64,000 nucleotides of DNA. Origin: Bacteroidaceae bacterium. Lineage in GTDB: Bacteria; Bacteroidota; Bacteroidia; Bacteroidales; Bacteroidaceae. Below the pieces are notes generated by a model that saw only the letters and a list, made by a program, of their open reading frames with translations, did no database searches and was not told the origin of the DNA. The position numbers and the translations under genes are program-made. Shown piece after piece: positions 2,333 to 55,828 of the stretch. The DNA lies in assembly GCA_017965425.1 (NCBI GenBank), contig JAGCPY010000007.1, positions 90,494 through 154,493 on the forward strand. The letters run 5' to 3'. How positions within the stretch are numbered: the stretch's first letter is position 1; each line of letters starts with the position of its first letter.

Positions 2333-2648
2333 AAATCCCTCAATCCCTCACCGTTTACGATAATCAGCTGAAAGAAAGCAGCTTGCAGGTGAGGGATTGG
2401 TGAGGGATTGGTGAGGGATGGTGAGGGATGAAGCATGAATGTCAGAAAAAAAGAAATCCCTCACCATCCCTCACCTATTCCTCACCAATCCCTCACCTGT
2501 AAATCACTGAATGACAATCCTGTAGCACAAACGGTGAGGGATTGAGGGTTTTTCGCCCTAAAATACATGTATGGGGGGAGTGATGAACCGAGTTTTGACA
2601 ATCTGATTGGAACGTGTACACCTTACTTGCGGAAGGTGTACACGTTCC
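2333..2648. repeat. Convergent-gap element copy 1 (nested inverted repeat plus GTGTACAC hairpin)
   Basis: Outer boxes (CCCTCAATCCCTCACC at the left, its complement at 2533-2548) are each separated by exactly 35 bp from inner arrays of GGTGAGGGAT boxes. The left inner boxes start at 2388, 2399, 2410 and 2420. The two inner arrays are complementary around a short loop. The two 35-bp stretches (2353-2387 and 2498-2532) are not complementary to each other. Sixty bp after the outer box comes a perfect 16-bp hairpin, GGAACGTGTACACCTT at 2609-2624 with its complement at 2633-2648. The copy lies between the convergent ATPase and yebC genes. A further 11-bp stem (GTGTGCACTTT, 2767-2777 with 2785-2795) sits just before the yebC stop. 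Nothing else is visible in the 2307-2824 gap. Confidence 0.9.
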
Positions 2649-2824
2649 TGACCATCAGTGTGTACCAGGTCATGTTTTGCGCTGCTCCAGACGGTTGTAT
2701 CCAGATGGATTCGACGTCAAAATGGCTGTTCTAAGACATAAAACATGCACATCTTGAATAAAAAACGTGTGCACTTTGCAGGTGAAAGTGCACACATCGT
2801 CAACAGCAGGTATTGTTGTTCCCG

Positions 2825-3553
2825 CTATTCTTCCGGTTTCATATTGGTGTAAACCGTTTGCACGTCATCAAATTCTTCCAGACGTTCCACCATCTTGTTC
2901 AAGCTTTCGCGCTGCTCAGGTGTGACGTCCTTGAGGTCATTGGGGATATAGGTGAACTCACCGCCCACTTCCTCGAATCCACTCTCTTCCAGGTGCTTCT
3001 GGATAGCGCCATAGGATTTTGGATCGCCGTAAATGGTCAGCGTGCCTTCTTCCTCATCCTCGTCGTATTCGTCTTCAACGCCGTAGTCAATGAGATCCAG
3101 AATCAGCTCGTCCATGTCTATGCCGTCCTTCTTCTTGAACGTGAAGACACACTTGTGGTCGAACAGGAAAGCGAGGCTTCCCATCGTACCCAGATTGCCT
3201 CCGAATTTGTTGAAGACGCTGCGGACGTCAGCAACTGTGCGTGTAGGATTGTCCGTGAGCGTATCGACGAAGACGGCAATGCCGTGAGGTCCATAACCCT
3301 CATAGGTCATTCCCTTGTACTCGCTCTGGTCTTTTCCCATCGCGTTTTTGATGGCACGATCAATGTTGTCCTTCGGCATGTTCTCACGCTTGCAAGTAGC
3401 GATGATGCCACGCAGTGTTGGGTTCATGTCGGGATCTGGCCCACCAGCCTTGACGGCGATGGCAATCTGCTTGCCCAGCTTGGTGAATGTCTTTGCCATG
3501 TGGCCCCAACGCTTCAGTTTGGCGGCCTTGCGGTATTCAAATGCTCTTCCCAT
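2825..3553 (-). CDS. YebC/PmpR (TACO1) family protein
   Basis: YebC-family proteins were long called transcriptional regulators; members of the TACO1/YebC group are now linked to relief of ribosome stalling at proline runs. The 242-residue protein starts 'MGRAFEYRKAAKLKRWGHMA' and has the conserved 'PTLRGIIATCKRENMP' region, the family's typical three-domain length and an acidic stretch near 175-190. It lies 148 bp downstream of pheT with a GC-rich palindromic repeat between them, so co-transcription with pheT is plausible. No signal peptide is present. Confidence 0.93.
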   Translation of the reverse strand: MGRAFEYRKAAKLKRWGHMAKTFTKLGKQIAIAVKAGGPDPDMNPTLRGIIATCKRENMPKDNIDRAIKNAMGKDQSEYKGMTYEGYGPHGIAVFVDTLTDNPTRTVADVRSVFNKFGGNLGTMGSLAFLFDHKCVFTFKKKDGIDMDELILDLIDYGVEDEYDEDEEEGTLTIYGDPKSYGAIQKHLEESGFEEVGGEFTYIPNDLKDVTPEQRESLNKMVERLEEFDDVQTVYTNMKPEE

Positions 3554-3578
3554 AACGATTAGAACTGCGGACCTTCCT

Positions 3579-3701
3579 CCTGCCCCTCCCTTGTAGGGCG
3601 CAGAGTAGAATCCTTTGAGTTTTTATAAGTTATTAATGATATGATTATTAATATTTGAAAGTGACTACTCCTTCCCTTCAAGGGAGGGCGGGTGGAGGGG
3701 C
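3579..3701. repeat. GC-rich palindromic repeat (ACCCCTCCC type), copy 1
   Basis: A left arm containing CCCCTCCCTTGTAGGG and a right arm containing CTTCCCTTCAAGGGAGGG flank about 65 bp of AT-rich sequence. The arms can pair with each other and internally. The right arm ends next to the pheT stop codon. It is a more diverged relative of the copies at 16721 and 19117 and lies between two co-oriented genes. Confidence 0.75.
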
Positions 3702-6209
3702 CTATCTCAACTCTGCATTAAGTTGTTTTGTCAGATTCTGAATCAGTTTCTGCATGATGCTGTCGATGGCCTTGTCATTGAGCGTCTTGGTTTCGTCTTG
3801 AAGGATGAAATTGACAGCGTATGATTTCTTGCCGGCAGGAAGATTCTTTCCTTCATAGACATCGAAGAGACGCACTTCCTTGAGGAGCTTGCGTTCTGTC
3901 TGATAAGCGATGGACTCGATGCGGGCGAACTCCACACTCTTGTCAACCAGCAAGGCGAGATCACGGCTGACAGCAGGGAATTTGGGCAACTCTGTATAGC
4001 TGACTTTCTCCTTGCGAATCAATTTCATCACTTGCTGCCAGGCGATATCGGCGAAATAGACTTCCGTCGGGATGTCGAAAGCCACCTGCAACCGCTTGGC
4101 CACAATACCCAGCTGTGCAATCACCTTACCACCACGATTTTCAATGAGAATGCTCTTCGAGAAAACATCGTTGGTTCCTTCCTTGAACACAAGTGCTCCG
4201 AAGGGAACGCCAAGACGCTGGAGAATATTCATCACATGTGCTTTCAGGACAAAGAATGATTGGTCTTCGTCTGGATGTGCCCAAGAACCGCTTGTGCGCT
4301 TGCCTGTAATCCACAGACCAAGATGATAGTCTTCGCTATAGGCATCGAGCACATGCTTGATCACTTCGGGATCACGGCTGGAACTAACACCTGGTATGAT
4401 GTCCGGGCACTTCTTGTCGGCATGGAAATAATAGCAGTTGCCAAATTCAAAGAACTGCACATCACCCCGACGGCGGTTGACGTTGCGGCTGATGCTTTCC
4501 AAACCACCAAACAACAATGTCTGACGCAGGACGCTCAAGTCTTGGCTCAACGGATTCAGCAAACGAACACAATGCTCGGCGGGGTAAGAAGAAAGGTTCT
4601 CGTAGTAGGCACTCTTCTGCAAAGAGTTGTTCAAGATTTCATTGAACCCAGCACCTGCAAGTTGTTCGGCTACAATGTTCTGTAGCTTATGGCTTTTATC
4701 TGGTTCACCTTTCACGGACAGGGCCGAATTGATGGACATCGGTATTTCAACATTGTTGTAGCCATAGATGCGCAAGATGTCTTCCACCACATCGCAAGGA
4801 CGTTGTACATCGACACGATAGGCAGGCACCGAGAGCTGCAAACCACCATCATCCTCGGCCTCAATCTTCATTTCAAGTGAAGCCACAATGCTCTTGATGA
4901 CATCGACAGGAATATGCTGACCAATGAGTCTATCCACATAATCGAAACGAAGGTTGACAGGGAAATCCTTGATGGGTTCGGGATAGACATCCACGATTTC
5001 CATCGAGACTTTGCCACCAGCCAACTCCTGACACATCTTGGCCGCCAGCTTTAAGGCATATATCTGACCATTCGGATCGATACCACGCTCGAAGCGGAAG
5101 CTGGCGTCTGTCTGAAGACCATGACGACGTGCACTCTTGCGAATCCAAGTGGGATTGAAATAAGCACTTTCGAGCAAGACATTCTTTGTCGTCTCATAAG
5201 TGCCACTGCCTTTTCCTCCATAGACACCGCCGATGCACATAGGAGCCTCGGTATTGCAAATCATCAGATCATGCTCACTAAGTTTGCGGTCAACTCCATC
5301 AAGCGTCTGGAACGGAGTCCCCTCTGGCATGGTCTTCACGATAACTTCTTTGCCCACAATCATGTCTGCATCGAAGCAATGCAAAGGCTGACCAAAAGCC
5401 ATCATCACATAATTCGTGATGTCCACGATATTGTTGATTGGACGCAAACCAATGGTTGTCAGATGTTCTTGCAGCCATTTAGGACTCTCTTTCACTTCAC
5501 AATCCGTTACCGTAACGGCTGCATAGCGAGGACATGCCTCGGTGTTCTCTACACGAATGGGGATTTGCAAGTTGTGGTTATCGACTTTGAAATCTTCGAC
5601 TGTTGGACGATGCAAAGCCGTCTTGTAACCATTCTGTAAAAGCCAAGCATAGAGGTCACGGGCAACCCCGTAATGCGAACATGCGTCTGCACGGTTAGCC
5701 GTGATATCTACTTCTATCAGATAATCACTTTCCAGCCCGTAGTATTCAGCGGCTTTCTGACCAACGGGCGTCTCTGCGGGCAAGACAATAATGCCGCTAT
5801 GATCTGTGCCGATGCCAATCTCATCCTCGGCACAAATCATGCCATTGGACTCGATGCCACGTAATTTGCTTTTCTTGATGACGAACTCCTGATCACCATC
5901 ATACAACTTAGTTCCCAGCGTTGCCACGATGACTTTCTGGCCAGCAGCTACGTTAGGTGCTCCACAGACAATCTGTTGGACTTCGCCTGTTCCAACATCG
6001 ACCGTGCAAACATGCATGTGATCGCTATTAGGATGAGGCTCACACGTGAGGACATGTCCCACAACAAGGCCCTCCAATCCACCACGAATACTTTGTACCT
6101 CTTCCACGCCATCAACTTCTAATCCAATGGAAGTCAAGGCAGCAGCTACTTCATGAGCCGTCAACTCCGTATCAACATATTCACGGAGCCATTTATAGGA
6201 AATATTCAT
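3702..6209 (-). CDS. pheT: Phenylalanine-tRNA ligase beta subunit
   Basis: This is the beta chain of the alpha2-beta2 enzyme that charges tRNA-Phe, acting in the cytoplasm. The 835 residues carry, in order, the EMAP-II-like tRNA-binding domain (about 40-155, 'VVGHVLTCEPHPNSDHMHVC'), the B3/B4 editing region, the B5 domain, the catalytic-like core ('RRGDVQFFEFGNCYY') and the C-terminal anticodon-binding FDX-ACB domain ('YTELPKFPAVSRDLALLVDK'). The length is complete. pheS is not in the window. A -7 box lies 31 bp upstream of the start codon. Confidence 0.97.
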   Translation of the reverse strand: MNISYKWLREYVDTELTAHEVAAALTSIGLEVDGVEEVQSIRGGLEGLVVGHVLTCEPHPNSDHMHVCTVDVGTGEVQQIVCGAPNVAAGQKVIVATLGTKLYDGDQEFVIKKSKLRGIESNGMICAEDEIGIGTDHSGIIVLPAETPVGQKAAEYYGLESDYLIEVDITANRADACSHYGVARDLYAWLLQNGYKTALHRPTVEDFKVDNHNLQIPIRVENTEACPRYAAVTVTDCEVKESPKWLQEHLTTIGLRPINNIVDITNYVMMAFGQPLHCFDADMIVGKEVIVKTMPEGTPFQTLDGVDRKLSEHDLMICNTEAPMCIGGVYGGKGSGTYETTKNVLLESAYFNPTWIRKSARRHGLQTDASFRFERGIDPNGQIYALKLAAKMCQELAGGKVSMEIVDVYPEPIKDFPVNLRFDYVDRLIGQHIPVDVIKSIVASLEMKIEAEDDGGLQLSVPAYRVDVQRPCDVVEDILRIYGYNNVEIPMSINSALSVKGEPDKSHKLQNIVAEQLAGAGFNEILNNSLQKSAYYENLSSYPAEHCVRLLNPLSQDLSVLRQTLLFGGLESISRNVNRRRGDVQFFEFGNCYYFHADKKCPDIIPGVSSSRDPEVIKHVLDAYSEDYHLGLWITGKRTSGSWAHPDEDQSFFVLKAHVMNILQRLGVPFGALVFKEGTNDVFSKSILIENRGGKVIAQLGIVAKRLQVAFDIPTEVYFADIAWQQVMKLIRKEKVSYTELPKFPAVSRDLALLVDKSVEFARIESIAYQTERKLLKEVRLFDVYEGKNLPAGKKSYAVNFILQDETKTLNDKAIDSIMQKLIQNLTKQLNAELR

Positions 6210-6239
6210 ACTTTATAGGTTGTTTTTCTATTTTGCGCG

Positions 6240-6247
6240 CAAAAATA
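6240..6247 (-). promoter_or_regulatory. -7 box of the pheT promoter
   Basis: TATTTTTG read on the minus strand, 31 bp upstream of the pheT ATG. It matches the TAnnTTTG consensus; no clear -33 box is seen. Confidence 0.55.
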
Positions 6248-6333
6248 CAAAAAACTTTGCACTTTTCACGGCTATACATCACTTTTTTTATGGAAGACAC
6301 CTTAATATAATGACTTTTACTCCTGTTTCGTTT

Positions 6334-7185
6334 TCATTTTGCCATATATTTCTCACCGTCTTGGATATAGACACCATTGTCTGGCTTGGCATTGAGCCGA
6401 CGACCATTCATGTCGTAGATGGCAGCAGAGCGAGAGGCCGTTTCTGCTGCCGGCGCTTCGGTGCGAGTCTCTACGTCGGTAAGGCTCTTATACTCCGCAA
6501 TAGCCTTCTTGAGCTGTGCCTGATATCCTTCGGTACATACGACATTGGCAAACATCGTAGCAGCCAGGAGCAGCGAAGCATCGGTGTCGGTCTTCCAGTG
6601 GTGACCGCAGATCACACGGTTGAGAGCATATTCTTGAGCACGCAGCATGATTTCCGTGGTATATTCCGGAGCTATCGTACACAATGCCAGGGCGAACATA
6701 TAGCCACGGGAAGAGTGACCGGAAGGATAACTCAAGGTCTTGCCCTCTTCGTCGTCTGTCCATGGCTTCAGCGACTCTTCCTTGAAGGTGAAGAACGGAC
6801 GCAGGCGCTGGTATTTGTTCTTCACTGCCGTATTAGCAATTTGGGCATCCGTGACGGCACGCTCGCACAGCAGAATAATCTCCGGCGTGGTCTCGTAGGT
6901 CAGATTGATGCCGATACATTTGCTCTCGCCAAACACCTCATAGAGCTCTGCCGACTCATCCCAAAGAGCCTGCTGGCTGACTTCCTGGTCCTCTCGCTGT
7001 TCACGTCCCCACTGATAGTAGTAGAAGTCATAGGCGAAAGCGCCACTGGTCAGTGGTGGATATTCCTTGATGAAATCATACTGCTTGGGACGTGTCTGCT
7101 CTGTGAGAAAGCCGTCAGGCCTCTGCCCCCAAATACTCGATGTAGTCAAGACGGTGGCTACAATTGCTAATAATACCTTTTTCAT
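6334..7185 (-). CDS. Secreted class A acid phosphatase (PAP2 superfamily) with C-terminal sorting-type motif
   Basis: This enzyme is likely to release phosphate from organic phosphomonoesters outside the inner membrane. It has a signal peptide (residues 1-20, cleavage after 'SIWG') and all three class A acid phosphatase motifs: K-x6-RP in 'KNKYQRLRP', 'YPSGHSS', and R-x5-H-x3-D in 'NRVICGHHWKTD', with Asn in place of the usual Ser before Arg. The last 30 residues ('YDMNGRRL' to 'GVYIQDGEKYMAK') match the short C-terminal motif seen in three other exported proteins of this window, which resembles a type IX secretion signal. Gene neighbours (pheT, dnaB) are housekeeping and unrelated. Confidence 0.9.
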   Translation of the reverse strand: MKKVLLAIVATVLTTSSIWGQRPDGFLTEQTRPKQYDFIKEYPPLTSGAFAYDFYYYQWGREQREDQEVSQQALWDESAELYEVFGESKCIGINLTYETTPEIILLCERAVTDAQIANTAVKNKYQRLRPFFTFKEESLKPWTDDEEGKTLSYPSGHSSRGYMFALALCTIAPEYTTEIMLRAQEYALNRVICGHHWKTDTDASLLLAATMFANVVCTEGYQAQLKKAIAEYKSLTDVETRTEAPAAETASRSAAIYDMNGRRLNAKPDNGVYIQDGEKYMAK

Positions 7186-7391
7186 TGACTTTAAGTTCTT
7201 TATATTATTGTTAATTCTTATCTAAGTTTCGGATTTCTATTCTTAACTAAGCTGAAACATTGTAAAGTTACTCATCTGTCTGAAACACACGCCCCCGCCC
7301 ATCCGTCCCCCTTATAGGTGAGGGGCTATGGTCATGGACGTATGTGAATCAAGTAGTTAACCTTCTTCAGCAACTTGAATGGCTTATATGT

Positions 7392-8987: not shown

Positions 8988-9012
8988 GAATAGATAAAAT
9001 ACTGTTTACGTC

Positions 9013-9768
9013 TTATTTCATTTTCGTTTTCAATAACACTTCGGCACGTGCCAAATCCTCTGGTGTATCAATACTGATGGTTTCTTCTTGTGTAATACCA
9101 ACTTGTATGTGATAACCCGCCTGCAACCAACGCAGTTGCTCCAAACTCTCTGCCATCTCTAAAGGTGACGGTGGAAGTGCAGTAATCTCAGCCAAGACTG
9201 CCGGACGATAAGCATAAAGGCCGATATGTTTATAGAATGTTTGCATCGACAACCACTCGGAACGGTCAACATCTCTTAAATATGGAATCACGCTGCGACT
9301 AAAATAGAGTGCACGGCCAAAGTCGTCAAGTACTACCTTCGGAAAGTTAGGATTCTCCAATGCCGTCCATCCATCTAGAGACGTAAAAGGTTTCACCAAC
9401 GTGGCAATCTGCGTTTTTGGATGATCGAAACAATGTTGAATGGCTAGCAAGTGAGAGGGCTGAATGAGGGGTTCATCGCCTTGGATGTTGACGACGACAT
9501 CATATTCTTTGTCCCATTTCTTATAAGCTTCATCAACGCGGTCCGTGCCACTTTTATGATGAATACTGGTCATGACGGCCTTACCGCCAAAGGCCTTCAC
9601 GGCATCACAGATTCGTTCGTCGTCTGTTGCCACAACAGCTTCATCCAGCACGCTTTCGACGGCTTTGTACACATGTTCTATGACAGTCTTTCCACACAAC
9701 TTCGCCAATGGCTTGGCGGGAAAGCGCGTCGAAGCATAGCGAGCAGGAATAATACCAATAAATGTCAT
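9013..9768 (-). CDS. kdsB: 3-deoxy-manno-octulosonate cytidylyltransferase
   Basis: KdsB activates Kdo to CMP-Kdo for lipopolysaccharide inner-core synthesis in the cytoplasm. The 251-residue protein has the family start 'IGIIPARYASTRFPAKPL', the 'VVNIQGDEPLI' motif and a typical length. It is divergent from the FolK-like gene and leads into dnaB. Its presence shows a Gram-negative outer membrane. Confidence 0.96.
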   Translation of the reverse strand: MTFIGIIPARYASTRFPAKPLAKLCGKTVIEHVYKAVESVLDEAVVATDDERICDAVKAFGGKAVMTSIHHKSGTDRVDEAYKKWDKEYDVVVNIQGDEPLIQPSHLLAIQHCFDHPKTQIATLVKPFTSLDGWTALENPNFPKVVLDDFGRALYFSRSVIPYLRDVDRSEWLSMQTFYKHIGLYAYRPAVLAEITALPPSPLEMAESLEQLRWLQAGYHIQVGITQEETISIDTPEDLARAEVLLKTKMK

Positions 9769-9820
9769 ATAACTTATGTTAAAACTTTCTTCAAATGATA
9801 TACGTTTGTAAACTTTCCCC

Positions 9821-9828: not shown

Positions 9829-9833
9829 TGGGC

Positions 9834-10229: not shown

Positions 10230-10258
10230 ATCCCGTTCCTTCATATCGTTGATACTCA

Positions 10259-15734: not shown

Positions 15735-16066
15735 AAAATCCCTCAATCCCTCACCTTTTGAAATAACCATCTGAAAGCAAAGCGATTGACGGTGAGACTT
15801 TGGTGAGGGATAGGTGAGGGATGGTGAGGAATAACGAGGTGTCGAGTTTATCTGCATGTATGATCAATCCCTCACCATCCCTCACCTATCCCTCACCAAA
15901 GTCTCACCTATAATATTCTGTTTTCCAATTAAATAGAACTAATGGTGAGGGATTGAGGGATTTTTGATGAAAAAGCGATGTATAGTGGGTGTGATGAATA
16001 ATTATTTCTAAACAATCTGCCTGGAACGTGTACACCCTACAAATAGAAGGTGTACACGTTCCAGGC
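15735..16066. repeat. Convergent-gap element copy 2
   Basis: The architecture is the same as copy 1. Outer boxes are followed by 35-bp intervals at 15756-15790 and 15909-15943, inner arrays of four boxes have 11/11/10 spacing, and T runs occur at both outer ends. After 'GATGTATAGTGGG' comes a perfect 18-bp hairpin, GCCTGGAACGTGTACACC (16019-16036) pairing with 16049-16066. It lies between the convergent glyA and rnfA genes, its hairpin ending 29 bp from the rnfA stop. I see nothing else in 15589-15734. Confidence 0.9.
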
Positions 16067-16095
16067 AAAACGTGTGCATGTTCTCGCGACTGGGG

Positions 16096-16720: not shown

Positions 16721-16876
16721 GACCCACCCCCCTGCCCCTCCCTTGTAGAGAGGGGAGTATAATGTATTAGCTATGGGGAGCTATTAGGGTCATTCTTTTA
16801 ATGATGTTTACTATTCTTATTGCATTTCTTGAAATGTAACCACTCCCTCCCTACAAGGGAGGGTGAGGGGTGGGTC
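16721..16876. repeat. GC-rich palindromic repeat, copy 2 (between rnfE and rnfA)
   Basis: The 156-bp unit has complementary ends: GACCCACCCCCCTG at 16721 and GAGGGGTGGGTC ending at 16876, each followed inward by CCCTCCCTTGTAG-type sequence and its complement. The 100-bp centre is AT-rich. Its last base lies in the rnfE stop codon. Folded in the mRNA, it would put a strong stem between two Rnf cistrons. Confidence 0.88.
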
Positions 16877-18671: not shown

Positions 18672-19187
18672 TCACATCTGATGGCTGAGAGGCCAGGAAG
18701 TCATCTGCACGGGGAAGGAGATGAGCAGGAAAACACGTCCCACGAGGGCGGGGTTGAAGGGGTTGGTGCCCAAACCGCCGAAGGTCATCTTACCAATGCC
18801 GATAGCCACAAGGGCGCCGATGATGATAATCCAGATGGGCAGGTTCGAGGGCAGGTTGAAGCCGAGGAGCAGACCCGTGAGGACGGCACTGCCGTCGCAG
18901 ATGGTCAGACGCTCGCGGTCGAGGATGAAGCGTGTGATGGCCCACTCAAAGAACACACACGCAGCCACCGACGTAGCGAGGACGATGGCAGACCCCAGCC
19001 CGAAGAAATAGAGCGAAGCGATCAGGGCAGGCACCAAGGCGATGCATACGCCGTACATATTGCGCTGCACCGAGTCGCCGCCGTGGACGTGGGGTGATAG
19101 GGAAATGATGGGTCGGGACCCACCCCCCTGCCCCTCCCTTGTAGGGAGGGGAGTAGATACTTGTGAGGAATTACTCGTATTAGGCAT
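18672..19187 (-). CDS. rnfD: Rnf subunit RnfD, N-terminal part, with repeat-encoded N-terminus
   Basis: This is the first half of RnfD, a membrane subunit of the Rnf complex. The core starts 'IISLSPHVHGGDSVQRNMY', which is where other RnfD proteins begin. It is preceded here by about 26 extra residues, including 'STPLPTREGQGGGS', encoded by the left arm of the GC-rich palindrome at 19117-19273. The ORF ends at a TGA just before the FMN-attachment motif. Downstream sequence continues in frame, so the whole gene spans 18141-19187. Confidence 0.87.
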   Translation of the reverse strand: MPNTSNSSQVSTPLPTREGQGGGSRPIISLSPHVHGGDSVQRNMYGVCIALVPALIASLYFFGLGSAIVLATSVAACVFFEWAITRFILDRERLTICDGSAVLTGLLLGFNLPSNLPIWIIIIGALVAIGIGKMTFGGLGTNPFNPALVGRVFLLISFPVQMTSWPLSHQM

Positions 19188-19273
19188 AATCGTATGTCTC
19201 GTTAAATGAATGATGAAATCTATTCTTGAAGGGTGACCACTCCCTCCCTACAAGGGAGGGTAAGGGGTGGGTC
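19117..19273. repeat. GC-rich palindromic repeat, copy 3 (rnfC/rnfD junction)
   Basis: The 157-bp unit matches copy 2 at both ends: GACCCACCCCCCTG at the left and AAGGGGTGGGTC at the right, with inner CCCTCCCTTGTAGGGAGGGG. The AT-rich centre differs from copy 2. Its left arm contains the start codon and first codons of rnfD; its right arm ends 8 bp from the rnfC stop. Confidence 0.88.
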
Positions 19274-29451: not shown

Positions 29452-29778
29452 AAAATCCCTCAATTCCTCACCTTTATTGATAATTATCTGAAAGAAAGTC
29501 GCTTGCAGGTGAGGGATTGGTGAGAGATAGGTGAGGGATGGTGAGGAATCATGGAGGAAGGTATTCTTCTGCTTTCATAAGAAATCCCTCACCATCCCTC
29601 ACCTATTCCTCACCAAAGTCTCACCCATAATGCGTTGTAGGACAAGTCAATGGCTTCGAAGGTGAGGGATTGAGGGATTTTTCGCGTCATAGAGCATGTA
29701 TAGAGGGGAATGGTGTGGCGCATCTTGACATTCTGCACAGAAGATGAACACCTTACGTGTGAAAGATGTACACGTTCC
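29452..29778. repeat. Convergent-gap element copy 3
   Basis: Outer boxes, 35-bp intervals at 29473-29507 and 29626-29660, and inner four-box arrays with 11/11/10 spacing are all present, with T runs at both ends. The GTGTACAC hairpin is damaged on the left side (GATGAACACCTT), while the right arm (AAGATGTACACGTTCC, 29763-29778) is nearly intact. It lies between the convergent fRMsr and DUF5686 genes. The stretches 29311-29451 and 29779-29929 show nothing else I can name. Confidence 0.9.
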
Positions 29779-39655: not shown

Positions 39656-39718
39656 TGTCGCATAACGACAATCCTTGTCCCAACATCAACGCCCTTCCTG
39701 AATTTTGGCAAAAAAAGT

Positions 39719-40165
39719 CTCAATCCCTCACCTTTGTCGATACCATCCTGGCTATGAGCGACTTGATGGTGAGAGATTGGTGAGGGATAGGTGAGGGATG
39801 GTGAGGGAAAACGCCAATCTCATGCTTTTCTTTCAATAGTGTCTATATGTTTAGTTCTATAAACATCTGTTTATCAACGATTCCATTTCCTCTGGCAGGT
39901 TCCTCGGTTTGTCACCCAATCCCTCACCGTCAACGTTTGAGGGCGAATTCCTCACCATCCCTCACCGATCCCTCACCGATCCCTCACCATCAAGTCGCTC
40001 ATAGCCAGGATGGTATCGACAAAGGTGAGGGATTGAGGCATTTTCGTCCAAAAACGTAGTTACGTGCGGATTAGTGAGCCCTCGAAAAGGTATTGACCTC
40101 ATGGCGGGAGGTGTACACGTTCATGACGGAAAGTGTACACATTCATGGCAGAAGGTGTACACGTT
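39719..40165. repeat. Convergent-gap element copy 4 (near-perfect 88-bp inverted repeat)
   Basis: The arms 39719-39806 and 39950-40037 are each 88 nt and complementary with only three mismatches. The first 55 positions, including the whole 35-bp interval (39733-39767 against 39989-40023), match perfectly. The loop is 143 bp and includes two further boxes. To the right, GGTGTACACGTT-type boxes start at 40110, 40132 and 40154, an exact 22-bp direct period. The nhaC stop codon (40143-40145) abuts the second of these boxes. The copy separates the convergent galK and nhaC genes. Confidence 0.92.
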
Positions 40166-41597
40166 CTCGGTGAATGTCCGCCCCTTTGACACGATGTCTA
40201 TTTGCTTTATCACCACCCTTCACACGTCCAGAGGCAGCGACAATAACACTGGTGACGGGTGAAAGGAAATTGAAGAAACAGTATGGGAGATAGGCCAGTG
40301 TGGCAACGCCGAGGACAGTACTCTGCACGAGCCCGCAGGTGTTCCAGGGGACGAGGACGCTGGTGACGGTGGCTCCGTCCTCACAAGTGCGGCTCAGAAG
40401 ACGCGGCTCGTAACCTCTTTCACGATAGACATCCTTGAACATCGAACTGGTGAGGATGATACTGAGGAACTGGTCGGAAAGTGCTATGTTGCAGAAAATG
40501 CCTGTCAGAGCCGTGGAAGCCACGAGTGAAGCTGTCCCGTGAACGAAATGCAAGATAATCTGCATCACATCGCCGAGAACACCCGTAGCTGTGACGACAC
40601 CCCCAAAGACCTGTGCACAAATGATGAGCCACACGGTAGGCATCATGCCTGCCATGCCATTGGTGTGGACAAGTTGGTCCAAATCCACGGCTCCTGTCTG
40701 CAACTGCGTGGAGCCATAGATGACCTTCATGATGCTTTCGTACCAGCTGTTTTCAGCAATCTGGGACAGCAACGCCGGTTGCCACACGACTGCCACGACG
40801 GCGGCCATCATGGCGGCCAGAAACAGCACGACCATCGCTGGCCAACGGCGGGCAATCATCACGCCAGTCACCACAGGAACCAACAACAACCACGGCGAAA
40901 TCATGAACGACTCCTTCAGCTGATGGAGAAAGCTCACCTCGCCGCTTCCCGACACTTTCATCAACAAACCCGCCATCGTGAAGATGAGCAGAGAGATTAG
41001 GAAAGTGGGGATGGTGGTCTTCATCATATAGCGAATGTGCGTGAACAATGGCGTTCCCGAAACGCTGGAAGCCAGCACTGTTGTGTCAGACAGCGGCGAA
41101 AGCTTGTCACCGAAATAAGCTCCCGTGATGATGCTGCCTGCCACCCAACCGTCGTCAAAGCCGTGGGCGCGACCGATGCCCATCAAAGCCACGCCGATGG
41201 TGGCCACCGTCGTCCACGACGACCCCACCATGAGGCTGACCAATGCACAAAAGATGCTGCTGCTGATCAGGAACCACTCCGGACGCAACACCTGTACGCC
41301 ATAGTAAATCATCGTAGGCACGATGCCCGAAACCATCCAAGTGCTGCCAATGGCTCCAATCAGAAGCAGGATGATGATGCTGGGCATGCAGCTGGCAATC
41401 TTGTCTGTCATCTCTCGCTCCAGCAATTCCCATTCGACACGCCCCATCAAGTAACCAACCAGCACACAGACAGCTGACGCGATGAGCAAAGACACTTGTG
41501 TGGCACCCTCCAAGGCTTCCGTTCCGAAGACAGACACACAGGTGGCAATCAGCGCAATCAGCGCCGCAAAAGGAATCAGGGAAAGATACTTTTTCAT
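40143..41597 (-). CDS. nhaC: NhaC-family Na+/H+ antiporter
   Basis: A 484-residue inner-membrane antiporter with about twelve helices. Family motifs include 'GSWTTVATIGVALMGIG'-like helix 4, 'GAYFGDKLSPLSDTTVLASS' with the conserved Asp and Ser/Thr residues, and 'PWNTCG' near 440. The C-terminal tail, about ten residues ending 'HRERVHLLP', is encoded by a GTGTACAC box of the neighbouring element, so the original stop has probably been replaced. Confidence 0.92.
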   Translation of the reverse strand: MKKYLSLIPFAALIALIATCVSVFGTEALEGATQVSLLIASAVCVLVGYLMGRVEWELLEREMTDKIASCMPSIIILLLIGAIGSTWMVSGIVPTMIYYGVQVLRPEWFLISSSIFCALVSLMVGSSWTTVATIGVALMGIGRAHGFDDGWVAGSIITGAYFGDKLSPLSDTTVLASSVSGTPLFTHIRYMMKTTIPTFLISLLIFTMAGLLMKVSGSGEVSFLHQLKESFMISPWLLLVPVVTGVMIARRWPAMVVLFLAAMMAAVVAVVWQPALLSQIAENSWYESIMKVIYGSTQLQTGAVDLDQLVHTNGMAGMMPTVWLIICAQVFGGVVTATGVLGDVMQIILHFVHGTASLVASTALTGIFCNIALSDQFLSIILTSSMFKDVYRERGYEPRLLSRTCEDGATVTSVLVPWNTCGLVQSTVLGVATLAYLPYCFFNFLSPVTSVIVAASGRVKGGDKANRHRVKGADIHRERVHLLP

Positions 41598-47457: not shown

Positions 47458-47468
47458 CGCAGCACAAA

Positions 47469-50400: not shown

Positions 50401-50771
50401 TTCTTCTTGTTGACCAAATAGGTATAGACGCTTTCGTCCACTTTCCAGCAGAAACGGTCTTCGGTGGAACGGGCGTTCTCGAAGACGACGCTGTAGGAAT
50501 TGGAACTGCTGGCAGCCAGATAGCGTCCACTAACCTTCTGTCTCAAAAGGACGTAGCCGCTTTTGCCCGAATTTTCGGCCACGAAAACGTAGGTTCCGGC
50601 GTCGTTCTTTGCAAAGGCAGAAAGGGCTGGGGCATCGCCCGCCTCGTTGTTTCCGAGCAGTTTCTCGTAGATGTTCAGCCAAATGTAGTATTCTTGATTG
50701 GCGGTAAGCGTGGCCGCATGGAGCGTTGCCATCATCCATAAGGCCAAAAGGAGCAAAAACGATTTCTTCAT
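47469..50771 (-). CDS. Secreted GH128/Asl1-like glycoside hydrolase with C-terminal sorting-type motif
   Basis: An 1100-residue exported protein. It has a signal peptide (1-19), a lectin-like N-terminal part (about 25-155), a middle region, and a catalytic TIM-barrel core of the 'glycosyl hydrolase catalytic core' type (about 375-610) with E424 in 'LNEPEHSEQ' as likely acid/base and E529 in 'LWLTEMEIS' as likely nucleophile. Beta-sandwich modules follow (about 720-880 and 900-1060), then the C-terminal motif 'IYDLSGRPV...GVFIVRGRK'. Its place inside a glycan-assembly operon suggests it trims or releases the polymer made there. The GH128-like assignment comes from motif pattern only. Confidence 0.72.
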   Translation of the reverse strand: MKKSFLLLLALWMMATLHAATLTANQEYYIWLNIYEKLLGNNEAGDAPALSAFAKNDAGTYVFVAENSGKSGYVLLRQKVSGRYLAASSSNSYSVVFENARSTEDRFCWKVDESVYTYLVNKKNGKYLGVDGANKGSAYVSVYYDKPKGSHSQFSAIPANGSTWDEARAAFVSEVYTNEQGVREIDYCLMKNLQIDRDDAIDIHVSANDKPIQGTTKINLGSDRTWLIIDNLTPSDVVSNYLKYVTIEGKRASNNSNCRVAIFLNGAAVIPIPKAPMTCQGTDGEFTLAVANHADLSKRSNTMTSFTLRRGYMATVASGTKGSGHSRVYVADHADLEVVLPKALAKRVSSVFIKPWQYLSKKGWGNTSGTSGADQLRATWFWSWSAGYSSTTNLEYVPCRQHLYWPSASDVNNKTASASLSLNEPEHSEQHTNQQCSCGGTINAWTAYTINKDFLPGGGRIGSPQPTELSYLTEFCGHVDDMASRCDFAVTHAYWDLAGYNETDYANWFCDTKCKSVWNNTGRPLWLTEMEISASWNSNKVTSYEQNRKYLQVLLQKLEESPWVERYCIYGVDMWQTAMFYEYNPSKGLTPAGQVYRDHRSTFAYNSKYTKTPTWWAPSAKVPALKVKTNTNGTISFTITNPNQDMTDELYVEKLGADGRWTEIARMEDRSKLESQTVSITGVSGEGLDLENDHFRVVVITLTGATVYSGDARGLLVNPSIETNSKTTVEGWTCTKEAQNGFTKEASGDTYLEVWDPNAAQIQFDYYQELSDLDNGLYRLTANVFNSTNRVEGATVNGAVGLYAQTTDQLYFSPVTEDSELDTTRVNIIDQIVVTDGKLRVGIRNLGTMSARWAGGDNFLLVRTGDLKGADLNAAHVEADYALYDLMPFTGEDASSRDATRFIVNPDCNRKNSYGWTTKNVEYKTDAEAYDGDASNSYWNIWKSGSFSSSMSQEIPHLPEGTYAFSALLRGQNTATMTLTASTPTASASKSFQGIGNVSPEGAAYPQGWQLVTTEPVQVGKGEVLTLKLDVEASATAWWSVDHFALTLTSIPEGHTDVRLPSAMQLVDDNTIYDLSGRPVPYPAVRSGVFIVRGRKVFFK

Positions 50772-51787
50772 GATGAGGTATCTTTTTGATATAGTTTTTC
50801 TTGTTGACGTTTAACGAACAGGTAGAGCCGCTGTTGAGCATCGAAGCGTCGGAGACTGAGCGTGAGCCAATAACCGGGACGCCATCTGAATGACCAGGGC
50901 AGACGCGAGGGACGGAACGTGTGCAGTACCGTCTGAAAACGTTCTTTCAACGGTGCCAGTTCATTCTCGGGAATATCCTGAATATGATTCAGGTAAAGGC
51001 GATAACATGCAATGAATGTCATCCAGCGTGAACCCTCGAACCGTCGCATCACTGGGCGTGAGATGTTTTCTTTCTTCAGGCTCAGCAGCAAGCTCAAGTT
51101 GGCTTCCATGTAATCAAAGCGTCTTAGGCTGAAAGCTATAGTCATGGAAGCTGGATGCTTCATATAATAATATGTACCCGTGCACGCGCGAACTTCACGG
51201 CTGTGCAGATAATGGAGCCGGCTTGTGTTGTCATCGCTATAAAGGCGTGTCGCAGTGTCGAAAGGAATCTGTCGGTGAAGTTCTGCACGAGTGACGTAGA
51301 GACCGTGAAGCTGCCAACCGTCGAGGCACAATTCAAATGCTTCGGCTCCTGTGAGTGCTTCCCCCAACTCCAACGGGGCTGGCAGGGGGTAGTCTTCCTG
51401 CCGCCCGTCCTGCTCGTAACATTCTACCAATCGAAACAGACAGCAATCGGTTTTGGGGTGAAGGTGAAAGACCTCCACGGCTTTCTCCAACGCGTCGGGA
51501 GACAACCAGTCGTCTGCATCGACCATGCAGACCAACGGAGCTTTCATTTTGGTCAAAGCCAGGTTGCGCGCAACGGCTTGCCCGCTGTTGACAGGGGTCT
51601 GAAGAACCTCTATGCGCGCATCCATCTTAGCGCGGTTTTCCAAGATGTCAAAGGTCTCGTCCGTTGAGCAGTCATCTACACACAGAATCTGAATGTCGGC
51701 AAGGGTTTGACGACAGAGAGAATCCAGACATCGGGGAAGCGTTGAAGCTGCATTGTAGGCGGCCACAAGAACGGAAACGGAAGTCAT
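50768..51787 (-). CDS. GT2 family glycosyltransferase
   Basis: A GT-A enzyme of 339 residues: 'VSVLVAAYNAASTLPRCLDS', 'CVDDCSTDETFDI', 'GQAVARNLAL' and 'VDADDWLSPDALEKA'. It overlaps both neighbours by 4 bp (ATGA type) and is therefore tightly coupled with the flippase before it and the glycosidase after it. Confidence 0.92.
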   Translation of the reverse strand: MTSVSVLVAAYNAASTLPRCLDSLCRQTLADIQILCVDDCSTDETFDILENRAKMDARIEVLQTPVNSGQAVARNLALTKMKAPLVCMVDADDWLSPDALEKAVEVFHLHPKTDCCLFRLVECYEQDGRQEDYPLPAPLELGEALTGAEAFELCLDGWQLHGLYVTRAELHRQIPFDTATRLYSDDNTSRLHYLHSREVRACTGTYYYMKHPASMTIAFSLRRFDYMEANLSLLLSLKKENISRPVMRRFEGSRWMTFIACYRLYLNHIQDIPENELAPLKERFQTVLHTFRPSRLPWSFRWRPGYWLTLSLRRFDAQQRLYLFVKRQQEKLYQKDTSS

Positions 51788-53262
51788 AGGCGCAATCGGT
51801 TTCTTATTTTCTCAATGAACGTGGTCTCACGTGCCAATATCTGATAGCTTCGCCAGGCGGAGAGGCCGAACAAAGGAACGCCGACGGCGTATGGCCAACC
51901 AGACGGCAACATCATGCAGGCCATTAACGTGACACCCACGAGGAGTGCTTGTATAAAAGCCAGTTGCCATGTTGCCGGCGAAATACGCACATGATACTGG
52001 CGACCATAGACGATGCTCAACATGAACACATCGAACAAAGACGAGAGCGAAAGGCCGATACCTGCACCCACAATGCCCCAAAGGCTGAAGCATCCGACCG
52101 TCAGGCACAACGACACAAGGTCATAGATGACTTCCATGAGCAGATAGAGCTTCGAATCGCCACGGGCAAGCGCCATGTAGCCAATGGGAAGCGAAATGCC
52201 ACGAAGGAAAATATAGAAAGACGTGCAGATGGCCATGCCGGAAGCAGGAAGGAAGTCGCTCGACGAGAGAATGCGTATGACAATCGGCATGGCTGTCATC
52301 ATGGCAATCAGCAAAGGAGCCATCAACAGGAGGCATACGCGAATTTGCTGGTTGATGGTCTCGTTGCAACGCGCCACGTCATGATTGACGCTGGAGAGAC
52401 GGGGGAAGTAATCTGCCTCGAAAGTGGCATAGACGAAACCCGCGTAAGTAGCCATCAGACTATAGCCTATGCGATAATATCCCACGTCGTCCTGAGACCC
52501 GATACGCTTCATCAGTCCCAGCAGCAGCATCGACACGGCAGCCCCGGCAATGCCAGCGAGCACGTAAGGAACGCCGGTGCGAATCATCTTCCATCCTTCT
52601 TGGAAAATGCTTCGTGAGAAAGGAGCAATCTTCCAGGAATAAAGCGGCAACGTGTAGGAAAGGTGTATCAACATCATGGCAACGGAACTGACATCCAATG
52701 CCACGATGATACCCCTCATGCCCCATGCCCACAGAAAGGGAATCGTGAGTAGCAGGGTTGTGATGGCACCAATGACGGATATCGCCGCCACCCGGCGCAG
52801 GCGTCGCAACCCCTTCAAGATGGAAATCTCTCCGCCCGTGATGCTCAACGCGGCCACCATCGGAACAAGGCCGACAATGCTCAACACGTCATGGCTATCC
52901 CCCTCGAAGAACCATTGCCCCAACAGGGGAGCTGCAGCCGAACAAACCAACGCGGCCAGCAAAGCCGTCCAACACGCCCACGTGCGGACAACACAGACGA
53001 AATGACGCTTGGCCGCGTCGCTGCCCGTTTCAAACAGCTCGGACATCCGGCGGACCGACGAAAAAGGTATGCCGAAGTTCGTGCTGTTGTTCACGAACTC
53101 CGAGATGCTCATATAGATGGCCATCAGCCCATAGCCAGCCGTGCCCAGAAACCTTGTGGCTAACTTGGTACGGACGAAGCCTATCAGGACCATCAATCCC
53201 TGCACGCCGCCGAAGACGCCGGTGTATTTCAGCGCATGATCTAATGTCGAAGACTTTTTCAT
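51784..53262 (-). CDS. Wzx-like oligosaccharide flippase (MOP superfamily)
   Basis: A 492-residue inner-membrane protein with about 12-14 helices that resembles polysaccharide flippases moving lipid-linked oligosaccharides to the periplasm. 'FVRTKLATRFLGTAGYGLMA' near residue 30 and a duplicated helix pattern support the call. It opens the glycan operon and has its own -7 box. No Wzy polymerase is present in the window. Confidence 0.9.
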   Translation of the reverse strand: MKKSSTLDHALKYTGVFGGVQGLMVLIGFVRTKLATRFLGTAGYGLMAIYMSISEFVNNSTNFGIPFSSVRRMSELFETGSDAAKRHFVCVVRTWACWTALLAALVCSAAAPLLGQWFFEGDSHDVLSIVGLVPMVAALSITGGEISILKGLRRLRRVAAISVIGAITTLLLTIPFLWAWGMRGIIVALDVSSVAMMLIHLSYTLPLYSWKIAPFSRSIFQEGWKMIRTGVPYVLAGIAGAAVSMLLLGLMKRIGSQDDVGYYRIGYSLMATYAGFVYATFEADYFPRLSSVNHDVARCNETINQQIRVCLLLMAPLLIAMMTAMPIVIRILSSSDFLPASGMAICTSFYIFLRGISLPIGYMALARGDSKLYLLMEVIYDLVSLCLTVGCFSLWGIVGAGIGLSLSSLFDVFMLSIVYGRQYHVRISPATWQLAFIQALLVGVTLMACMMLPSGWPYAVGVPLFGLSAWRSYQILARETTFIEKIRNRLRL

Positions 53263-53279
53263 TGGTCGTCTTTGGGCGG

Positions 53280-53287
53280 CAAAGTTA
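53280..53287 (-). promoter_or_regulatory. -7 box of the glycan operon
   Basis: TAACTTTG on the minus strand, 17 bp before the flippase ATG. It is divergent from the panB promoter. Confidence 0.5.
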
Positions 53288-53404
53288 ATCTAAATTTACG
53301 GATTTACGCAGGTTTGATTCACTTTTTTCACGTTTGCCCTGCCTATTTTCAGCCTTTCATGCAGAAAAAGTAAAATGTAAATCCTTAAATCGGTAAATAA
53401 TGCT

Positions 53405-53412
53405 TACCTTTG
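53405..53412 (+). promoter_or_regulatory. -7 box of panB
   Basis: TACCTTTG, 34 bp before the panB ATG. No -33 box is clear. Confidence 0.5.
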
Positions 53413-53446
53413 CGCCCAAATAACCGACCCTAAACAAACAATTAAA

Positions 53447-54268
53447 ATGGCAGGATACTTAGTAGATGACGCCCGCAAGGTGACGACGCATCGTCTTTTT
53501 GAAATGAAACAGAGTGGCAAGAAGATTGCCATGCTCACCTCTTACGACTATTCGATGGCTCGCATCGTGGACGGCGCTGGCGTCGATGTGATTCTCGTCG
53601 GCGACAGTGCCTCCAACACGATGGCCGGCAACGTGACGACCTTACCCATCACGCTCGACCAGATGATTTATCACGCCCGTAGCGTCATGCGCGGTGTCAC
53701 GCGCGCCTTGGTCGTCTGCGACATGCCTTTCGGCACCTATCAAGTTGATCCTCAAGATGCCGTCCGCAACGCCGTCCGCATTATGCAGGAAAGCGGTTGC
53801 GATGCCGTGAAGATGGAAGGTGGCGTAGAGATTATCCCTGCCATCAAACTGATTCTTGACGCTGGCATCCCCGTGATGGGACATCTGGGTCTGACCCCTC
53901 AGAGCATCAATAAGTTCGGCACCTACGCCGTCCGCGCCAAGGACGAGGAAGAGGCCGAAAAACTGCGCTCCGATGCCAAGGCGCTGGCCGACGTGGGATG
54001 CTTTGCCATTGTTCTGGAGAAGATTCCCGCCAAGCTGGCCACCGAAGTGGCAGAAAGCATCAGCATCCCCATCATCGGCATCGGAGCCGGAGGAGGATGC
54101 GACGGACAAGTGCTTGTCGTTCACGACATGCTCGGCATGAACAAAGGTTTCTCGCCCAAGTTCCTACGTCGCTATGCCGACCTCAATGCCGTCATGACCG
54201 ACGCGATTGGCCAGTATGTCACTGACGTGAAGAGCTGCGACTTCCCTAACGAAAACGAACAATACTAA
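53447..54268 (+). CDS. panB: 3-methyl-2-oxobutanoate hydroxymethyltransferase
   Basis: PanB makes ketopantoate, the first step towards pantothenate and coenzyme A. The 273 residues contain '[20 protein letters not shown]', '[12 protein letters not shown]', '[11 protein letters not shown]', '[16 protein letters not shown]' and '[20 protein letters not shown]', which are the metal and substrate-binding segments. Normal length. Confidence 0.97.
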
Positions 54269-54283
54269 ACGCCCCACTCTCCC

Positions 54284-55585
54284 TTGAGAACGATTCATCT
54301 GCTTCTTGTGTCAGCCCTTCTGTTGCTGACCTCATGCACGAAGACCAGCTTCGTCAAGACTTCGGGAAGCCAGTTCATCCTCGACGGCAAGCCCTATTAC
54401 TATATCGGGACCAATGCATGGTATCTGCCCATCCTGGCCAGCGATGGAGCTGGTGGCGACCACCAGCGACTGACCCGCGAGCTGGATGCCCTTGACCAAA
54501 TGGGCGTACGCAATGTGCGTGTCCTCGTTGGTGCTGACGGCGTGCCGACAGCCCGCAAGGTGCAACCCGTCTTGCAAACGGCCCCAGGTATCTACAACGA
54601 CACCCTGCTCGTCGGTCTCGACCGCCTCATGACAGAGCTGGAAAAACGCGGGATGAAAGCCGTTCTTTATCTCAACAACTCATGGTCATGGAGCGGAGGC
54701 TATGCAGCTTATCTTCGCTGGTCAGGCACGTTTGAAGAAGAACCCGTTGATTCCATGAATTGGGTCAAGTGGTGTGCAGCCGCTGCCCACTTCGCACAAG
54801 ACCCTGAAGCCCATCGCCTCTTCCTGTGCCACGTAGAGCGTATGGTCAGCCGGCGCAACACCATCACAGGGCGACCCTACGCTGAAGATCCGACCATCAT
54901 GGCATGGCAAATCGGCAACGAACCACGCGCTTTCTCTGATGCCAGCAAGGAGCCTTTTGCTCAATGGGTGGCCGAAACCGCAGCCCTCATCAAGCGCCTC
55001 GATCACAACCACCTCGTGTCTGTGGGTAGCGAAGGAACTGTAGGCTGTGAACAAGACAAGGACCTCTATGAACGTCTGCACGCAGACCCCAACATCGACT
55101 ATCTGACAGCTCACATCTGGCCGCAGAACTGGGGTTGGGTGGAACGCGGAAAGGTGGCAACAAAGGAACAGGACAGCCTCATGCAGCAACAACTTGAAGC
55201 TGTCAATAATGAAACAGAAGCCTACATCCGCATCCACACAGACCTGGCACGAACTCTCAACAAACCATTGGTTATTGAGGAGTTCGGCTATCCGCGCGAT
55301 GCCAACCAGTTCAGCCACCAGGCATCCACCTGTGCCCGCGACATCTATTACCGTTTCATGTTTCAACATGTCATCGACAGTAAAAAAGCGTCCGATGTGC
55401 TGGCCGGAGTTAATTTCTGGGGATGGAACGGAGAAGCACGGGCACGCCACCTTTGGTGGGAACCATACGACCCCTACATGGCCGACCCCGCGCAAGAAGA
55501 ACAAGGACTTTACGGTGTCTTCGACAGCGATTCCACGTGTCTGATCATCCGTGAGGCCGTCTCTGCACTTGACTCCAGCGAGTAA
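54284..55585 (+). CDS. GH5-type (mannanase-like) lipoprotein, TTG start
   Basis: A 433-residue predicted outer-surface lipoprotein. The start is a TTG 15 bp after the panB stop; it gives a clear lipoprotein signal 'LLLVSALLLLTSC' with the lipidated Cys at 18. The TIM-barrel has the clan A catalytic pair: E213 in 'WQIGNEPRAF' and E333 in 'VIEEFGYPRD'. The overall pattern ('YYYIGTNAWYLPIL', 'NVRVLVGADG', 'LNNSWSWSGGYAAYLRW') resembles GH5 subfamily 7 beta-mannanases. It follows panB closely without a functional link. Confidence 0.85.
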   Translation: MRTIHLLLVSALLLLTSCTKTSFVKTSGSQFILDGKPYYYIGTNAWYLPILASDGAGGDHQRLTRELDALDQMGVRNVRVLVGADGVPTARKVQPVLQTAPGIYNDTLLVGLDRLMTELEKRGMKAVLYLNNSWSWSGGYAAYLRWSGTFEEEPVDSMNWVKWCAAAAHFAQDPEAHRLFLCHVERMVSRRNTITGRPYAEDPTIMAWQIGNEPRAFSDASKEPFAQWVAETAALIKRLDHNHLVSVGSEGTVGCEQDKDLYERLHADPNIDYLTAHIWPQNWGWVERGKVATKEQDSLMQQQLEAVNNETEAYIRIHTDLARTLNKPLVIEEFGYPRDANQFSHQASTCARDIYYRFMFQHVIDSKKASDVLAGVNFWGWNGEARARHLWWEPYDPYMADPAQEEQGLYGVFDSDSTCLIIREAVSALDSSE

Positions 55586-55654
55586 GACAAGATCTCTGCA
55601 ACCCCGAAAAAGCAATCATAGCTTCCTCTATACCCCAATCCCTCTTTTTCATGA

Positions 55655-55828
55655 AAAACCCCTCAATCCCTCACCCATAAATCACTGAATGACAATCTGA
55701 TGAGTCAAGAGGTGAGGGATTGAGGGATTTTTCACCAAAAAGACATGTATAAAGAGGAATTTTGGCCATGTCCTGACAAAAAAACCGGAACGTGTACACG
55801 TAAAGAGTGGAAGGTGTACACGTTCCGG
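55655..55828. repeat. Convergent-gap element copy 5 (minimal form)
   Basis: Only the outer boxes remain: CCCTCAATCCCTCACC (55660-55675) and its exact complement (55711-55726), with exactly 35 bp between (55676-55710). T runs flank the stem on both strands. Sixty bp later comes the perfect 15-bp hairpin CCGGAACGTGTACAC (55785-55799) paired with 55814-55828. It lies between the convergent GH5 and flavodoxin genes. Nothing else is visible in 55586-55970. Confidence 0.88.

Follow-up and report, generated by a model that had tools for sequence, protein, structure and literature searches.

Several described systems come close to the repeats treated here. Repetitive extragenic palindromes (REPs) and bacterial interspersed mosaic elements (BIMEs) occur in more than 100 extragenic copies per genome, often as inverted pairs; the gene of the REP-associated tyrosine transposase (RAYT) is itself flanked by two inverted copies, and the species-specific REPs have been proposed to be non-autonomous dependants of that gene (PMC2817692). 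BrickBuilt and other miniature inverted-repeat transposable elements (MITEs) of Porphyromonas gingivalis have 12-bp IS5-type ends, 23-nt tandem units and 19 copies (PMC4596501), PINSR is a 188-bp repeat present in 177-184 copies in the Prevotella intermedia group (PMC4755523), and genes for BT4734-like primases and VirE (VapE) helicases have been described from mobile elements (PMC5862659). Here we analyse a 64,000-nucleotide stretch of a Bacteroidaceae genome (hereafter the window; assembly GCA_017965425.1, contig JAGCPY010000007.1, positions 90,494 to 154,493), located on contig C78 of a 3.73-Mb draft genome that is 95% complete (G000), which carries five copies of an intergenic repeat with phased boxes around an interval of exactly 35 bp. 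These repeats are built like the ends and the palindrome array of an element that bears a gene for a VapE-type helicase with a DUF3874 domain. The window elements are probably gene-less, MITE-like members of this VapE-DUF3874 element family, and their membership in the family is well supported.

In a paired element, two arms face each other over a spacer, with palindromes on one side. From the outside inward, an arm consists of a T-run or A-run, the sequence CCCTCAATCCCTCACC, which comprises two partial boxes 8 bp apart, a 35-bp interval (N35) and four GGTGAGG boxes at steps of 11, 11 and 10 bp; these inner steps are exact in 81 of the 86 arms of 43 paired elements. The pattern CCTCACC-N25-45-GGTGAGG is found at 171 sites in G000 vs one for the reversed control and, among the matches listed, always with N35. 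In the sample used for the interval survey (the window and 40 other G000 stretches, 483,463 bases in total, mostly picked around arms), box pairs with lengths from 10 to 66 occur at 35 (134 pairs), 46 (105) and 57 (87) only, the latter two corresponding to the adjacent boxes, +11 and +22; when lengths of 10-79 are allowed, 97 pairs lie at 67-68 and eight at 72-79. A looser detector applied to the same 483 kb (lengths 30-40) yields 35 in 105 of 106 arms, the other case being a 38 that lacks proper boxes. With a rule reduced to TCA/TGA landmarks, for which a distance of 39 equals N35 in this genome (lengths 15-60 allowed), the loci of G000 give 71 matches at 39, neighbouring boxes at 47 (46 matches), 50 (86) and 58 (56), and 26 further matches scattered over 20 other lengths, one to three at each. 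The sequence-only reading of the window had reported exactly 35 bp in all nine intervals; this count holds with lengths of 25-45 permitted, and freely varying lengths in other copies do not occur in G000.

The same reading had described the interval contents as variable. Indeed, 98 of 100 contents are distinct, but they are not free: in 35 oriented non-palindromic elements T17, A25 and T32 are present in 70 of 70 arms, A10 in 67 and G18 in 64, and across all 100 arms, some of them misoriented, T17 is found in 96, A25 in 96 and T32 in 94. The centre of the interval reads YTG-N5-[CA]AR (the shared core, YTG-N5-CAR), and 58 of 97 intervals of this genome have this core at exactly 17 bp from the outer landmark and 11 bp from the inner one (about 0.2 per position in shuffles). 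The noted resemblance of the right interval of copy 1 to that of copy 5 is real, and so is the identity, when inverted, of the two interval contents of copy 4 (35/35). Near-identical N35s in both arms (32-35 of 35) characterize six of the 43 paired elements, all with middles of at least 221 bp; copy 4 and the loci L016, L017, L034, L049 and L055 have such near-perfect inverted arms, with middles of 221-425 bp. Close perfect palindromes are unstable, and the long middles fit the loss of short-spaced perfect palindromes.

A tail of 16-bp palindromes, overlooked in the sequence-only reading, accompanies all five window copies and stands on one side of 41 of the 43 paired elements (on both sides in none, absent in two). 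Its consensus, read from 104 palindromes with up to four mismatches allowed, is GAASGT-N4-ACSTTC; neighbouring palindromes are 22 bp apart in 51 of 56 pairs, and G or C stands at one half-site position independently of the partner half. In the stretches mostly picked around arms, an arm is no more than 350 bp away from 64 of 69 palindrome pairs with the 22-bp step. The stretch between the two N35s, in turn, has a 10.0-bp length period (40 of 43 lengths, <260 bp; Rayleigh 0.62), which none of 5000 jittered sets equals (p 0.036 if each length is counted once).

The same components enclose a gene. The single DUF3874 match in the draft genome is a gene of 397 codons on contig C94 that is flanked by two arms, each with N35. 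The left part of this element contains the arm, tandem boxes, a TAnnTTTG motif resembling the Bacteroidetes promoter motif and, directly upstream of the gene, the palindromes GAACGTAAACACCTTC and GAATGTGCACACCTTC, 22 bp apart; the right arm begins 5 bp past the stop codon. In four relatives (G030, G125, G108 and G132), arms likewise enclose a VapE (PF05272)-DUF3874 (PF12990) gene, to which BT4734-like_N (PF08800) is added in G030, and a DUF6078 open reading frame (ORF) is detected by Pfam in G108 and by eye in G030. A Pfam search with five ORFs from the gene-bearing elements of these relatives identified VapE, DUF3874, DUF5906, BT4734-like_N and DUF6078, along with a sub-threshold match to DUF2535. 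The sequence-only reading had named transposition-related ends as an outcome that would refute its view, and this outcome is found in part: a gene-bearing element has the arms as its ends, yet its gene encodes a VapE helicase, and no transposase is recognised among these five ORFs.

Approached from the gene, the association is seen again. Among the 30 best-scoring DUF3874 loci, an arm lies just downstream of the gene in nine under a strict rule and in 15 under a generic one, compared with 0.2% and 2.35%, respectively, of control windows (galactokinase loci, mostly coding); approached from the arm, 11 of 95 loci fetched by arm match, representing seven distinct places, contain a VapE match. Palindrome pairs upstream of the gene have the 22-bp step in five of 18 loci, including that of G000, and a lag of 33 in three, with other lags at 0-2 (null 3.6%); palindrome triples have lag 22 in seven of 24 loci (control 0.67%), lag 33 in three and other lags from 17 to 35 in none. 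Distant VapE genes (identity 35-42%; annotation BT4734/BF3469, VapE or DUF3874) occur in five records from Bacteroides and Parabacteroides, in which arms were judged by eye only; three of these records have lag-22 triples upstream of the gene. Such 22-bp palindrome arrays at distant VapE/BT4734 genes are seen in L270 (Bacteroides finegoldii), L271 and L272, and three of the five genes lie near an HU gene. Among viral contigs, 11 VapE pattern matches were obtained, none of them confirmed, and the VapE relatives in plasmid and phage records all have less than 60% identity. One of the seven places, in G125, is a 0.4-kb element in whose middle the palindromes run into the final ~24 codons of VapE (score 98); this element reads as a deletion derivative. 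For the window copies, neither a VapE gene nor a remnant above the null is found, and they are classed as gene-less relatives only.

A scan of GTDB r220 for the exact box pattern returned two stretches, both on one contig of the yak rumen metagenome-assembled genome RGIG10247, whose locus is 100% identical over 8 kb to contig C63 of G000, so that the window stems from this organism or one very close to it; no other record scanned contained the pattern, the genome of the window itself possibly being excluded. In 138 genomes of the same genus, the exact pattern is found at 0-5 sites, mostly chance-like, with a variant in a few genomes. A profile built from 37 arms matches at E 0.01 or better in at least 34 of these 138 genomes; the match counts for relatives are lower bounds because no more than 28 candidates were scored in each genome, under stricter filters, and weak matches were read in part. 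The TCA/TGA rule gives at least one match in the loci of 25 of 29 relatives, a few of them chance-like (control, 13 in ten 64-kb shuffles). The boxes of the relatives are TCCCTCA, ACCGTCA, TCCGTCA, CTCGTCA, TCTGTCA, AATATCA and more, on a constant plan. The search of related genomes proposed in the sequence-only reading recovers the plan, with other box letters and intervals of mainly 28 or about 40.

Under a rule that admits only intervals of 24-46, outer steps of 8-9 and inner steps of 10-12, the 50 distinct intervals of the relatives fall mainly at 28 (18 intervals) and 40 (16), with three each at 27, 30 and 42, two at 37 and one each at 29, 35, 38, 39 and 41. The outer step is 8 in 44 and 9 in six; the inner step is 11 in 26, 12 in 22 and 10 in two. 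Of the 18 intervals in the 28 class, 15 have the core 6 bp from the outer landmark, and of the 16 in the 40 class, eight have it at 17 bp; the distance from the core to the inner landmark is 11-12 bp in both classes, so that an 11-bp turn is gained on the outer side only. An RNA loop would hardly account for a one-sided turn of this kind, which would be expected of proteins sitting on one face of the DNA.

Compared with the REP/BIME-RAYT systems, the present elements are alike in forming high-copy extragenic inverted pairs, in having a gene between two inverted repeats and in being species-specific; unlike those systems, they have a gene for a VapE-type helicase with DUF3874 rather than a tyrosine transposase, units of ~100 bp, boxes phased about a fixed interval and a 22-bp palindrome array (PMC2817692). 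Two Y1 genes are present in the genome, and a cognate Y1 transposase flanked by the studied repeat was not found there. PINSR, compared by description only, resembles the elements as a high-copy, intergenic, lineage-limited Prevotella repeat judged non-coding, but it is reported to lack terminal inverted repeats, and no parent gene is named in the passages considered (PMC4755523). BrickBuilt is also intergenic, with tandem repeats within inverted ends, and belongs to Bacteroidales, but differs in its 12-bp IS5-type ends, 23-nt units and 19 copies (PMC4596501). The G030 gene, with BT4734-like_N and VapE, is of the type treated in PMC5862659; unlike here, inverted arms, arrays and gene-less copies are absent from the available text of that account, in which 'inverted repeat' has no match. 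With MITEs in general, the elements share the traits of being short, gene-less, multi-copy and intergenic, with inverted ends in common with a gene-bearing element, except that no transposase is found in the gene-bearing elements (five ORFs, Pfam). Protein Data Bank entries 7pds and 7ola are the staphylococcal PriRep1 and SaPI5 primase-helicase replication initiators. Such proteins are found in cassettes and phage satellites with recombinases or integrases of their own; the element described here differs in being ~1.7-3 kb with no recognised recombinase. As to traits of phage satellites (staphylococcal pathogenicity islands, phage-inducible chromosomal islands, P4), no integrase is found in the five ORFs of relatives, and there is room for one gene between the arms in G000. 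Among the papers listed in a search of the literature, mostly without subscription papers, none describes the arms, arrays or gene-less copies, PINSR being a possible relative.

In the proposed scheme, the gene-bearing form consists of an arm, 16-bp palindromes at a 22-bp step, the VapE-DUF3874 gene and an inverted arm, with the addition, in some relatives, of a DUF6078 gene and a BT4734-type N-terminal domain. The VapE protein would act as a helicase that initiates replication, binding the palindromes (as iterons), the phased boxes or both, via its C-terminal domain; repeated sites at helical spacing beside the putative initiator gene, a trait of iteron origins, are present as far as sequence goes. 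The intervals of 28 or ~40 between TCA and TGA landmarks, one DNA turn apart, and the 8/11/11/10 steps could reflect several subunits on one face of the DNA flanking the core, and the gene-less copies may be spread in trans by the VapE-type protein, much as REPs may be by RAYT transposases. Mobilisation in trans by VapE, with palindromes acting as iterons and helical bridging of the boxes, is the most likely mechanism that we infer from the sequences. More tentatively, the family could represent minimal selfish DNA of Bacteroidales built around a helicase that initiates replication (VapE-DUF3874, whether or not it has a primase domain); such DNA would spread without a dedicated recombinase via paired arms, with box letters that change between species and a helical geometry that does not, and seed many gene-less copies, a helicase counterpart of the REP-RAYT system. 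If so, the common and little-explained VapE/BT4734-DUF3874 gene would be linked to the DNA sites on which it probably acts, species-specific intergenic repeats in gut and rumen bacteria would be explained, and repeats would be dispersed by a replication initiator in place of a transposase; the constant geometry with swapped letters makes the co-evolution of protein and site directly testable.

Spread is suggested by G090, in which similar copies, 77-93% identical to the copy at L174, occur at ten loci; most begin with ACCGTCACTCCGTCACC, their flanks differ and their right ends vary. The L174 copy is at the same place in G031 and G007, and in G000 a younger subfamily has 82-90% identity. Several observations weigh against the assignment of the window repeats to a mobile VapE-DUF3874 family. 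The window copies share only 63-83% identity. On their left side, a number of the G090 copies have another repeat in common, which means that not all flanks are independent; these copies show no clear target duplication, and a single attempt to find an empty site for a G090 copy yielded none that was clean, a relative with a 96% identical upstream gene having a different next gene. The palindromes are placed outside arm B in the gene-less pairs of G000 but between the two arms in the gene-bearing element, a difference in order that simple internal deletion does not account for; half-elements (e.g. L021 and L022) retain the gene-bearing order. Among the five ORFs scanned from gene-bearing elements, none is recognisable as a transposase, integrase or nuclease that could account for the proposed mobility. 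Among the 30 gene-selected loci, 21 have no arm under the strict rule and 15 have none under the generic rule, although the latter overlooks the C94 element itself, so that these 15 include missed real arms. No VapE remnant beside 105 arms of G000 scores above the null (top 38, null 44), and, apart from the G125 derivative, arm sides in relatives score no higher than 34, with null scores reaching 38 (71 rows altogether). Finally, the step counts in relatives stem from a detector restricted to outer steps of 8-9 and inner steps of 10-12.

The sequence-only reading took the fixed length of the interval as a sign of selection on geometry, giving as examples a protein dimer bridging two boxes and an RNA loop of fixed size. 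The data support such selection and, between the two suggestions, favour the protein-DNA one through the 11-11-10 steps, the 10-bp period of middle lengths and the interval classes that are 11 bp apart on one side. The RNA loop is not supported: base-pair covariation inside the interval does not rise above column composition, and the tail palindromes vary without compensation. A hairpin within N35 (positions 12-17 with 25-30) was rejected because its pairing is about as column composition predicts, RNA stems in the tail were rejected because pairing is broken without compensation, and an Rfam search gave no match at gathering thresholds. The same data bear on an explanation by host regulatory DNA, in which the repeats, lying between convergent genes, would be intrinsic terminators working in both directions or RNA hairpins, the interval being a structured RNA loop. 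The predicted hairpins are very strong (z -15.4 as RNA, -16.2 as DNA), A-runs and T-runs flank the outer boxes, and the inner boxes on the two sides of an element match each other better than shuffled ones do (37.1 vs 36.0 of 42; p 0.0002). All five window elements lie in convergent gaps, occupying five of the six such gaps among 49 (p 3.1e-6); among 54 elements with both neighbours called (simple script, stretches picked around elements), 22 are between convergent genes, compared with 27 of 239 other gene pairs (p 1.8e-6), while 24 are between co-directional and eight between divergent genes. Nevertheless, we consider this explanation unlikely: apart from the missing covariation, the uncompensated palindromes and the interval classes one DNA turn apart on one side, the galactokinase gene adjoining copy 4 has its own terminator-like hairpin ahead of the element (by eye), and the arms accompany a VapE gene, although termination could still be a side effect. 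In the VapE-DUF3874 scheme, the convergent enrichment would arise because insertion is harmless in such gaps, and the A-run/hairpin/T-run ends could serve as two-way terminators.

The arms and palindromes might also be regulatory ends of VapE genes, with the scattered copies being host-adopted, non-mobile binding sites akin to BIMEs. Convergent enrichment, high copy number and the conserved positions within old copies are compatible with this view, which we nonetheless find quite improbable, because the ten G090 loci, the G125 deletion derivative and the turnover of boxes between species look like spreading. It is very improbable that the repeats are ordinary MITEs that depend on a DDE-type insertion sequence, or REPs served by a Y1 (RAYT) transposase. 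Three to six long copies do share a transposase-like ORF remnant beside an arm, two of them as protein, and one of the two Y1 genes lies ~370 bp from an element. However, no intact copy of the remnant is found in the genome, none of the five ORFs examined in gene-bearing elements encodes a transposase, and the palindromes bordering the two Y1 loci are of a different family (GCCCTGAAAGGGC and CAGGGCAGCGCCCTG types); at the second locus, no box of the studied family is present. A RAYT as the cognate gene and a DDE transposase as the parent were accordingly rejected.

The Y1 (IS200-like) genes are at G000:C21:58693-59031 and C49:41537-41758 (L036, L037, L047:2900-3700); together with the palindromes that border them, they give the impression of a REP-RAYT system of their own. 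Palindromes of this second family are also inserted inside some of the elements studied here. The transposase-like remnant (..KWFLGFKLHIVCQEKGG..) stands next to the outer box at G000:C86:25699-25909 and on C61, C54, C63, C96 and C78 (L096, L097, L101), in a few of the youngest long elements. Beside long elements, L103 and L101 contain a repeat end, ACGTGAGTTCGGTGTAAG, that resembles the end of P. gingivalis MITE239, ACGTGAGTTCGATATAAAGGAA.

Within the window, 24 box matches are found at up to three mismatches vs 0.55 expected in shuffles, and all five copies with shared outer boxes that the sequence-only reading listed are present (Table 1). Details of that description change: copy 4 begins at 39717, not 39719, and the nested inverted arrangement applies to copies 1-4, which have two arms, but not to copy 5, a single unit.

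Table 1. Repeat elements of the window and their parts (window coordinates; N35, 35-bp interval).
Feature	Coordinates	Strand	Details
Copy 1, two-arm core	2337..2548	+	outer boxes 2337-2352, 2533-2548
Copy 1, intervals and middle		+	N35 2353-2387, 2498-2532; inner boxes 2388-2429, 2456-2497; spacer 2430-2455
Copy 1, tail	2610..2647	+	16-bp palindromes 2610-2625, 2632-2647; 22-bp step
Copy 2, two-arm core	15740..15959	+	outer boxes 15740-15755, 15944-15959
Copy 2, intervals and middle		+	N35 15756-15790, 15909-15943; inner boxes 15791-15832, 15867-15908; spacer 15833-15866
Copy 2, tail	16024..16083	+	palindromes from 16024, 16046; degenerate third ~16068 (one scan only); 22-bp step
Copy 3, two-arm core	29457..29676	+	outer boxes 29457-29472, 29661-29676
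Copy 3, intervals and middle		+	N35 29473-29507, 29626-29660; inner boxes 29508-29549, 29584-29625; spacer 29550-29583
Copy 3, tail	29740..29777	+	palindromes 29740-29755, 29762-29777
Copy 4, two arms, identical inverted N35	39717..40039	+	outer boxes 39717-39732, 40024-40039
Copy 4, intervals and middle		+	N35 39733-39767, 39989-40023; inner boxes 39768-39809, 39947-39988; long middle 39810-39946
Copy 4, tail	40085..40166	+	palindromes from 40107, 40129, 40151; 22-bp step
Copy 4, tail, palindrome-like 16-mer	from ~40085	+	one scan only
Copy 5, single unit	55660..55726	+	box 55660-55675, N35 55676-55710, inverted box 55711-55726
Copy 5, tail	55788..55825	+	palindromes 55788-55803, 55810-55825

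The long middle of copy 4 includes an extra box-like site at 39913, with no partner at 25-45 bp. Another short repeat family, of the CTCCCTTGTAGGGAGGGG type (repeat-finder families D6 and D7), occupies window positions 3569-3701, 16721-16876 and 19117-19273.

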